From Paenibacillus chitinolyticus NBRC 15660 (lineage in GTDB: Bacteria > Bacillota > Bacilli > Paenibacillales > NBRC-103111): a stretch of 64,000 nt of DNA. A model generated the notes under the pieces. It made no database searches, was not told where the DNA came from, and saw nothing but the letters and a program-made list of their open reading frames with translations. Below, in pieces: positions 6,372 to 8,709 of this stretch (positions are counted from its first letter, which is position 1; every line of letters starts with the position of its first letter). A program made the translations under genes and the position numbers. The stretch spans positions 62,001-126,000 of the forward strand of contig NZ_BBJT01000002.1 in NCBI RefSeq assembly GCF_000739915.1. The letters run 5' to 3'.

Positions 6372-6971
6372 TTAATCTCTTTTCCAATCATACTCCATAA
6401 TATTAGCAGCTTCTATAGCTGTATCTTCACCCAATAATTTTTCTACAACATATAACGCTGCGTCCATACCTGCGGATACTCCGGCAGATAATACAATTTT
6501 CCCGTTATCAACATAGCGGGCTTCTTCTAATATTTCAGTAGAAGTAGGTACAACATCCCTTAATTCATTTATAGCCAAACGATTTGTTGTAACTTTTAAT
6601 CCATCCAATAAAGTCGCTTTTGCTAAAAGTAAGGCTCCAGTACAGACGGACAGGATGATTTCAACATCATTTGATGTCTCACGAATCCAGTTCGTAATCG
6701 TCTCATTGTTCATTTCTTTTCTTGAACCCCATCCTCCGGGAACCACCAAAATATCAGGTTTAGGACAGTTAGCAATCGTATATGCTGGATTGATGCTTAG
6801 TCCTCCCGAGGCTTTTATCGGACTGTCATTTTCCGCCACAGTGAACACATTGAAGTCTTGCCCGCTATTACTGCCTGCAATAAAAACTTCAAACGGTCCA
6901 GCAAAATCCAAAGGTTCAACCTGTTCAAAAATTAATACGGCTACATTTCTTGTCTGCCGTACCTGTTCCAT
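6372..6971 (-). CDS. DJ-1/PfpI family protein (isonitrile hydratase-like)
   Basis: A 199-residue single-domain protein. VPGGWGSRKE and the nucleophile elbow LSVCTGALLLAKA place a reactive cysteine at residue 110, as in DJ-1/PfpI and the isonitrile hydratase/AraC-N branch. ATG 6971 follows GGGAG at 8 nt. The longer reading to 7043 would run through the terminator of the upstream riboswitch and is rejected. The exact substrate is unknown. The leader at 6988-7096 matches a ZTP riboswitch, so expression should follow the purine/one-carbon alarmone ZTP/ZMP, which hints at a repair or hydrolytic role when folate is short. Confidence 0.88.
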   Translation of the reverse strand: MEQVRQTRNVAVLIFEQVEPLDFAGPFEVFIAGSNSGQDFNVFTVAENDSPIKASGGLSINPAYTIANCPKPDILVVPGGWGSRKEMNNETITNWIRETSNDVEIILSVCTGALLLAKATLLDGLKVTTNRLAINELRDVVPTSTEILEEARYVDNGKIVLSAGVSAGMDAALYVVEKLLGEDTAIEAANIMEYDWKRD

Positions 6972-6987
6972 ATTATCATCTCCCATA

Positions 6988-7096
6988 TAAAAAAATAAAA
7001 GCATTAGGTCTAAGACCAAATACTTTGCCCAGGCGTATGGCATATGAAATATGTGCTCCCTCGTGGTTCTCCACGTTTACGCCAGTCACACATACC
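6988..7096 (-). promoter_or_regulatory. ZTP (pfl-type) riboswitch with a transcription terminator
   Basis: Read on the minus strand, the leader has the conserved parts of the ZTP/ZMP riboswitch in order. They are GTGACTGGCG (7089-7080), a hairpin CGTGG-AGAA-CCACG, GAGGGAGCAC pairing back to the 5' ATGTGT, and the 3' block CGCCTGGGCA (7035-7026), whose CGCC can pair with the earlier GGCG as the known pseudoknot. A terminator stem follows at 7001-7024 (11 bp with one mismatch around TTA) and then TTTTATTTTTTT (7000-6989). The ribosome site of the DJ-1/PfpI gene lies directly after. A TATAAT box sits upstream at 7110-7115. The family is known to turn genes on when ZTP accumulates. Confidence 0.9.
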
Positions 7097-7404
7097 AAAT
7101 ATTCACTTTATTATAATCTAAAAATTAAAACAAATACCAGCATTTGTTGCGTTATCCTGCCCGTTAGCGGAAAAGAGACCAATTGTTGCACACTGCATCT
7201 TCGTGAGGAAAAGTAAGGATGGTATACCAAAATATCGTCCACATCTCAATTCCTCCGTTTTTTTGTTGATTCCCTTTTTCTTCAATAGGGTTCCCAATTA
7301 CTTAACAAGATATAGAAAGGCGCCTATGCGCGAATCGTTTGCGGTTAATGATCAGATAAATCGGAGATAATTCAACACATACCGACATCTGGAGGAACTG
7401 CCAC

Positions 7405-8709
7405 ATGAATTCCAACGATCAATCGACCGGGCAAAATGCCTATTTGAAAGAGCTTAATGCCCTATTTATCCCTTTTAACGAAATGGAAAACCTGGACCGA
7501 ATAGTTGAAGCCATTGGAGACGCGGATATGGTGCTGCTTGGCGAAGCAAGCCATGGAACCTCGGATTTTTACCGGGTGCGGGCCGAGCTTTCGAAGAGGC
7601 TGATTACAAGCAAGGGTTTCAACATCATCGGCGTCGAAGGAGATTGGCCCGCCGCTTACCGGCTGAACCGTTATGTCAAAGGAAAGGCAGGAGCCGATTC
7701 CTCGGCGGCCGAGGCGCTCGGCGATTTTACCCGCTGGCCTACCTGGATGTGGGCGAATACGGAGATTCGCGATTTCGCGGAGTGGTTGAAGGCGCATAAT
7801 GCGGCAAGTCACGGGAACGGCAGCGAGCGTCAGAAGGTCGGATTTTACGGCATAGACATGTATTCGCTGTGGGAATCGATGGAGGCCGTTATCGGCTACC
7901 TGGAAAAAACTCGGTCTCCCCAGCTTGAACAAGCCCGCATGACCTACGCCTGTTTCGAGCCCTACAGCAGGGACCATCAGACGTATGGTATCGCGGCAGG
8001 CTTGCTCTCGGAGAGCTGCGAGGATGAAGTAGTCGAGCTGCTGAAGCAGATGCGGAGCCGGCGCATGGCACATCCGGGAAGTGAGGAAGAATTGAGTGCG
8101 GAGGTGAATATGCTGGTCACTTCCAGCTCGGAGGCCTACTATCGGACGATGGTCCGAGGCGGACCGCAGTCCTGGAATGTGCGGGACCGGCATATGGTTG
8201 AATCCCTGAAACGAATTATGTCCTATTACGGGTCCTCCGCCAAAGCCATTGTCTGGGAGCATAATACGCATATCGGGGATGCACGGGCAACAGATATGGC
8301 GCAAGAGGGCATGGTCAACGTGGGGCAGCTGCTTCGGGAAGATCCGGAGCAGCGGGTGTTTGCCGTTGGCTTCGGTACCTATCAGGGCGAGGTGTTGGCC
8401 GGAAGTGCCTGGGGTGATCCGGTGGAGAAAATGACCGTACCGCCCGGACAACCGGGAAGTTGGGAAGATTATATGCACCGGGCCGGAGGCGGAGTGGACG
8501 GCATGGTCATACTCTCCGAGGCATCCTCCGTGTTCCAGACGGTCATTGGCCACCGTGCCATCGGTGTCGTATACGATCCGAATCATGAGCAATTCGGAAA
8601 TTACGTGCCTTCGAGCATGAAGGACCGCTATGATGCGTTTGTTCATCTCGACCGGACTACGGCACTTCACCCCCTGCCTATCCTTCGGCCAGTTGCGGAA
8701 AAAGTATAA
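7405..8709 (+). CDS. Erythromycin esterase-like hydrolase
   Basis: 434 residues of the erythromycin esterase family. The catalytic-site motifs are LLGEASHGTSDFY (Glu47, His50), GVEGDWPAAYRLN, and a C-terminal WEHNTHIGDARATDM. Ere enzymes open the macrolide lactone using a water activated by His. Many chromosomal homologues have no proven macrolide activity, so resistance is only possible. ATG 7405 is 7-8 nt after TGGAGG. GC is higher than in the flanking spacers. It stands alone and is followed by a terminator at 8842. Confidence 0.9.
   Translation: MNSNDQSTGQNAYLKELNALFIPFNEMENLDRIVEAIGDADMVLLGEASHGTSDFYRVRAELSKRLITSKGFNIIGVEGDWPAAYRLNRYVKGKAGADSSAAEALGDFTRWPTWMWANTEIRDFAEWLKAHNAASHGNGSERQKVGFYGIDMYSLWESMEAVIGYLEKTRSPQLEQARMTYACFEPYSRDHQTYGIAAGLLSESCEDEVVELLKQMRSRRMAHPGSEEELSAEVNMLVTSSSEAYYRTMVRGGPQSWNVRDRHMVESLKRIMSYYGSSAKAIVWEHNTHIGDARATDMAQEGMVNVGQLLREDPEQRVFAVGFGTYQGEVLAGSAWGDPVEKMTVPPGQPGSWEDYMHRAGGGVDGMVILSEASSVFQTVIGHRAIGVVYDPNHEQFGNYVPSSMKDRYDAFVHLDRTTALHPLPILRPVAEKV

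Follow-up and report, generated by a model that had tools for sequence, protein, structure and literature searches.

A ZTP riboswitch ahead of a DJ-1/PfpI family gene in Paenibacillus chitinolyticus, and the recurrence of this arrangement among Paenibacillus and Cohnella relatives

Why a sensor of ZMP/ZTP should stand before a gene of the DJ-1/PfpI family is the question raised by a minus-strand leader in Paenibacillus chitinolyticus NBRC 15660, which was analysed within a window of 64,000 nucleotides (contig NZ_BBJT01000002.1, positions 62,001 to 126,000; the coordinates given below are those of the window). With a probability of roughly 0.8, we read the leader as a ZTP riboswitch acting at transcription, through which a shortage of 10-formyl-THF would, by way of ZMP/ZTP, turn pfpI on, the DJ-1/PfpI gene being a regular part of the ZTP regulon and its product probably a cysteine hydrolase. 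Class membership, gene order, recurrence and the terminator are the parts of this reading that were observed directly.

The Rfam covariance model of the ZMP-ZTP family (RF01750) matched the minus strand from 7099 to 7020 over its full length (model positions 1-86) with 59.0 bits and an E-value of 5e-7 in cmscan, and this was the sole Rfam match in the whole 64 kb window. An earlier note, written from the letters of this DNA, had named the motifs of a ZTP riboswitch here and had proposed this covariance search as a check; all the motifs were found, in the right order and on the minus strand, and the score lies above the gathering score of 39 bits. The aptamer (7020-7099, minus strand) carries the pfl motif with P1, P2, P3 and a pseudoknot, in which GGCG of J1/2 (7083-7080) pairs with CGCC of the P3 loop (7035-7032), both sides being read from the sequence. 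A model made from 30 related aptamers, with the window sequence in the training set, found a single site in the window at 89.9 bits. Among these 30 aptamers, 95.7% of the helix cells were paired, both sides had changed in a compensatory way in 10 of the 17 pairs of P1, P2 and P3, and covariation reached 0.373 as compared to 0.187 after shuffling, with none of 500 shuffles as high. CTGGCG in J1/2 was identical in all 120 distinct aptamers, as the search pattern itself required, and CGCC was present in the P3 loop of 119 of them. By class membership, the window leader is confirmed as a genuine ZTP (pfl) riboswitch, for which ligand binding is predicted.

Every conserved core block is kept in the window aptamer except at one position of the ligand pocket. 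The base after GCC in P3 (7038, minus strand) is A in the window RNA, the only A among the 120 distinct aptamers, and G in the other 119. By sequence order this position is equivalent to G63 of the Fusobacterium ulcerans aptamer, a mapping with which C69, G71 and the A18-U68 pair of F. ulcerans fit, and G63 is a member of the ligand pocket that is essential for ZMP binding (PMC11419147). The window copy may bind ZMP weakly or be on the way out, and the A is possibly a sequencing error. It is unlikely, though worth weighing, that the window copy is decaying while the ZTP-pfpI association is real group-wide; in that case the pocket change would reduce or remove the affinity for ZMP, leaving the gene either largely silent or constitutive. 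Such decay would agree with this unique G-to-A change, with the loss of the riboswitch at the closest sister gene of the window pfpI (L048, 82% identical), which has no aptamer, and with the aptamer score, the second-lowest of 17 leaders (59 bits; range 56-64). However, the rest of the core is intact, as are the pseudoknot, the terminator and the reading frame, and the reported ribose/phosphate contact of the G63 nucleotide is made via its 2'-OH, which is kept by any base (PMC11419147). A shift of the window aptamer to another ZMP-related ligand, matched to the substrate of PfpI, is very improbable: the change does fall in the ligand pocket, but it occurs in one sequence only, and the standard pocket G is kept in all the other PfpI-linked aptamers that the search pattern picked up. 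A working ZTP switch is still the preferred reading, and control of pfpI is less sure in the window strain than in the group because of this unusual base.

The intrinsic terminator claimed by the earlier note was also borne out, at 6990-7026 on the minus strand: the hairpin (7026-6997) starts directly after the GGGC of the aptamer, is followed by a U-rich tail to 6990, and has a free energy of -9.4 kcal/mol with a z of -4.48, none of 200 shuffles being as stable. A simple terminator scan missed this hairpin because of the interrupted U tract. The ribosome-binding site GGGAG (6980-6984, minus strand) was recognised in the sequence 8 nt before the ATG. A weak candidate -10 box TATAAT (7110-7115, minus strand) was picked by eye a short way before the aptamer, and a consensus promoter scan gave no minus-strand promoter at 7110-7115. 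A terminator-type hairpin was present in 67 of 67 ZTP-PfpI leaders with varied upper-stem pairs, and in 64 of them its first base is the one that follows GGGN. ZTP leaders of the family generally (e.g. L002, L018, L034) have the terminator stem directly after the aptamer GGGC, before folD too.

The ZTP switches that have been studied act on transcription as ON switches, in which the growing terminator invades P3 and the pseudoknot when ligand is lacking, and ZMP stabilises these elements (PMC7337938, PMC10085676). The window switch likely follows the same gating logic by analogy. In the ligand-free state, the hairpin that follows the aptamer would stop transcription about 20 nt ahead of the pfpI start; once 10-formyl-THF runs short, ZMP/ZTP would accumulate, and the pseudoknot and P3 held by the ligand would stop the terminator from forming in time, turning pfpI on. 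We infer the ON logic, the identity of the ligand in the window copy and the way in which ligand binding blocks the terminator. Only 1-2 nt of the terminator stem also belong to P3, and none to the pseudoknot; with so little overlap between expression platform and aptamer, the contact point of the gating would have to differ from that of the Clostridium beijerinckii switch.

The association of the aptamer with pfpI was followed in 104 genomes of the window's family (Paenibacillus/Cohnella relatives). Among the 23 best homologues of the window PfpI (at least 48% identity), 20 have the aptamer directly upstream, and none of seven more distant homologues checked has one. A distant second PfpI lineage (B) shows the same arrangement: of its 51 family genes that were checked, 37 have the aptamer directly upstream, as do 10 of 20 taken from two further families of the order. 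At least one ZTP-pfpI pair is found in about 51 of the 104 genomes. In named genomes the aptamer was present at 16 of 80 homologous loci, all in Paenibacillus or Cohnella, with about 40-120 nt between aptamer and gene; the close homologues of Lederbergia, Metabacillus and Bacillus (66-68% identical) were without it. The tree places a long branch between the two PfpI lineages, and the riboswitch is common in each with a few losses or gains, which means either two recruitments or an old duplication together with the leader. Riboswitch genes of lineages A and B (20 and 34) shared a genome in three cases, a borderline partial exclusion (p 0.07, two-sided). The genes around the 16 named pfpI loci include no conserved neighbours, the riboswitch being the sole constant one. 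Operon partners were also considered as a clue to the function of pfpI, and none was conserved. The ZTP-to-DJ-1/PfpI arrangement described in the earlier note is thus seen again in many species and in both PfpI lineages, and this recurrence supports control of PfpI at the level of the group. Chance adjacency, or hitch-hiking of the riboswitch beside an unrelated gene, is hardly credible for a pair found in about half of the genomes with unconserved neighbourhoods; about 0.3 ZTP-pfpI pairs would be expected by chance among 126 ZTP loci, a figure that ignores relatedness.

These 126 family loci, which comprise all of the genus and the best scoring elsewhere, form a sample biased by score, and their target names except PfpI were read from the sequences rather than from a family search. 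The aptamer precedes folD at 47 loci, DJ-1/PfpI at 37, the rpiB operon at 15, pabB at 4, a lone GNAT gene at 4, and purC, glyA, folC or purH at a few; PfpI is the second commonest target after folD in this score-biased sample. One of the 37 PfpI frames (L221) is short and perhaps broken. At three loci (L160, L161, L233) the aptamer is followed by a protein that looks by eye like a nucleotidyltransferase. Among 70 loci from the rest of the phylum Bacillota, no pfpI was found behind a ZTP aptamer. The window genome has four ZTP aptamers, before folD, the rpiB operon, a pabB-like gene and pfpI. The aptamer before the pabB-like folate synthesis gene (L004, C27:34881-34959, minus strand) is weaker, at 42.5 bits, with CACC for CGCC and GGGG for GGGC. 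Four other genomes of the genus have three ZTP aptamers each, before folD, the rpiB operon and a DJ-1/PfpI gene that is about 30% identical to the window's and belongs to another lineage; since its congeners also carry a ZTP-DJ-1/PfpI pair, the window gene is not a stray. In Paenibacillus, Cohnella and their kin, DJ-1/PfpI regularly belongs to the ZTP regulon, beside folD-fchA, the rpiB operon and pabB. A link of the window switch to one-carbon starvation can fairly be drawn from the ZTP class of the RNA and from the folD, rpiB operon and pabB targets in the same genome.

In one genus and a few relatives, PfpI runs on into a GNAT acetyltransferase (PF00583). In five genomes (L358-L361, L372) the same GNAT is encoded on its own right after a ZTP aptamer, and a lineage-B ZTP-pfpI is present as well in four of the five. 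The fusion and the shared ZTP regulation suggest that PfpI and GNAT act in one process. Stand-alone GNAT genes behind ZTP riboswitches were also seen at L195, L198, L216, L170 and L361, and share homology with the GNAT domain that L056, L063 and others carry fused to PfpI. One ZTP-linked PfpI-GNAT fusion (L069, genome G049) has Arg for the catalytic Cys (SVRTG); an intact lineage-B ZTP-pfpI gene is present in that genome as well.

The window gene itself (6372-6971, minus strand, ATG at 6971) encodes an InhA-like protein of 199 aa that matches PF01965 with 83.1 bits (E 2.6e-23; gathering cut-off 26.6 bits). Its nucleophile-elbow Cys is Cys110, and the AlphaFold model has a pLDDT of 94.9. Asp22, Cys110 and Thr111 align with Asp17, Cys101 and Thr102 of isocyanide hydratase, the mechanism of which has been described (PMC10971408). 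Asn130 sits where His is usual, and this residue is the sharpest separator, being Asn in 65 of 68 ZTP-linked proteins and His in 59 of 60 distant relatives; the link between this change and the riboswitch rests on about two deep events, with no informative independent pairs. It is suggestive only that the His-to-Asn change arose near the base of both PfpI lineages, as two events. That loss of the His would abolish catalysis was considered and rejected, because the equivalent His126 of DJ-1, although part of the lining of the substrate pocket, is dispensable, and H126A keeps cPGA hydrolase activity (PMC12135873). Scores against NCBIfam equivalog models of the glyoxalase III, YajL and PfpI deglycase kind fell far below the cut-offs (53.7 as compared to 131 bits, 39.5 to 139 and 19.7 to 330). 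We infer that PfpI belongs to the isonitrile hydratase-like branch and works as a cysteine hydrolase, with a small-molecule substrate relevant to one-carbon/purine stress.

An alternative that we do not favour, though it deserves a serious hearing, is that PfpI is a general stress protein, of a glyoxalase, a deglycase or a chaperone type, which is induced alongside the other targets but has no folate or purine substrate. The DJ-1 fold and the weak similarity to the DJ-1/glyoxalase III and YhbO models, all far below the cut-offs, are in its favour, whereas among solved structures 3mgk and isonitrile hydratase are nearer to PfpI than DJ-1 is, the same sensor stands before two separate PfpI lineages and a GNAT partner, and the pocket His is changed to Asn in both lineages. 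Beyond the preferred reading of a hydrolase within the ZTP regulon, we tentatively propose, with less than even confidence, that the two DJ-1/PfpI lineages and GNAT, fused or free, make up an undescribed ZTP alarmone module of Paenibacillales, in which an InhA-like hydrolase with the His-to-Asn change would salvage or detoxify a metabolite of the one-carbon or purine pathway (e.g. a formamide or an imidazole-carboxamide derivative) and GNAT would acetylate it.

The RNA itself belongs to an established class (ZMP-ZTP, RF01750). In the papers searched, to which neither the founding description of the class (Kim et al. 2015) nor any supplements belonged, no report of a ZTP-PfpI or ZTP-GNAT link, of its scale in Paenibacillales or of the second lineage was found, and none mentioned PfpI together with ZTP or the pfl motif. 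Riboswitch targets have repeatedly exposed the roles of unknown genes, and the ZTP-pfpI pair ties a DJ-1/PfpI enzyme, from a family with disputed bacterial functions, to a defined alarmone, by which the function of the enzyme becomes directly testable under antifolate stress. The window copy is also a natural test of one pocket nucleotide. Divergent from pfpI lies a gene on the plus strand (7405-8709) whose product belongs to the erythromycin esterase family (PF05139, E 2e-120) and falls far short of the EreA/EreB cut-offs; a search for anti-phage defence gave no PADLOC match.

As compared to the known ZMP-ZTP riboswitches (C. beijerinckii pfl, F. ulcerans and Thermosinus carboxydivorans), the window element shares the full-length covariance match, P1, P2 and P3 with the pseudoknot, the 5' leader position and a downstream intrinsic terminator, but it precedes a DJ-1/PfpI gene and differs in one pocket base. 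Its platform is unlike the studied ones, since the terminator of C. beijerinckii invades P3 and the pseudoknot (PMC10085676), whereas the window terminator stem abuts the aptamer. On the protein side, the closest solved structure is 3mgk, a ThiJ-family protein of Clostridium acetobutylicum of which only the structure is available, which is the best match both in sequence (1.5e-28) and in fold (Foldseek TM 0.88) and has TTN at the His position as read from the alignment. Also close is the InhA isonitrile (isocyanide) hydratase of Pseudomonas fluorescens (3non, 6ni5), an enzyme by which isonitriles are hydrated to N-formamides; it has the same fold (TM 0.85-0.88, taken over the query length) and the Asp, Cys and Thr residues in common with the window PfpI, at about 28% identity, whereas the window PfpI has Asn130 for His and Arg84 for Gly. 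Both structures rank ahead of DJ-1; human DJ-1, YajL and PfpI share PF01965 and the nucleophile-elbow Cys with the window protein, which is about 21% identical to human DJ-1.
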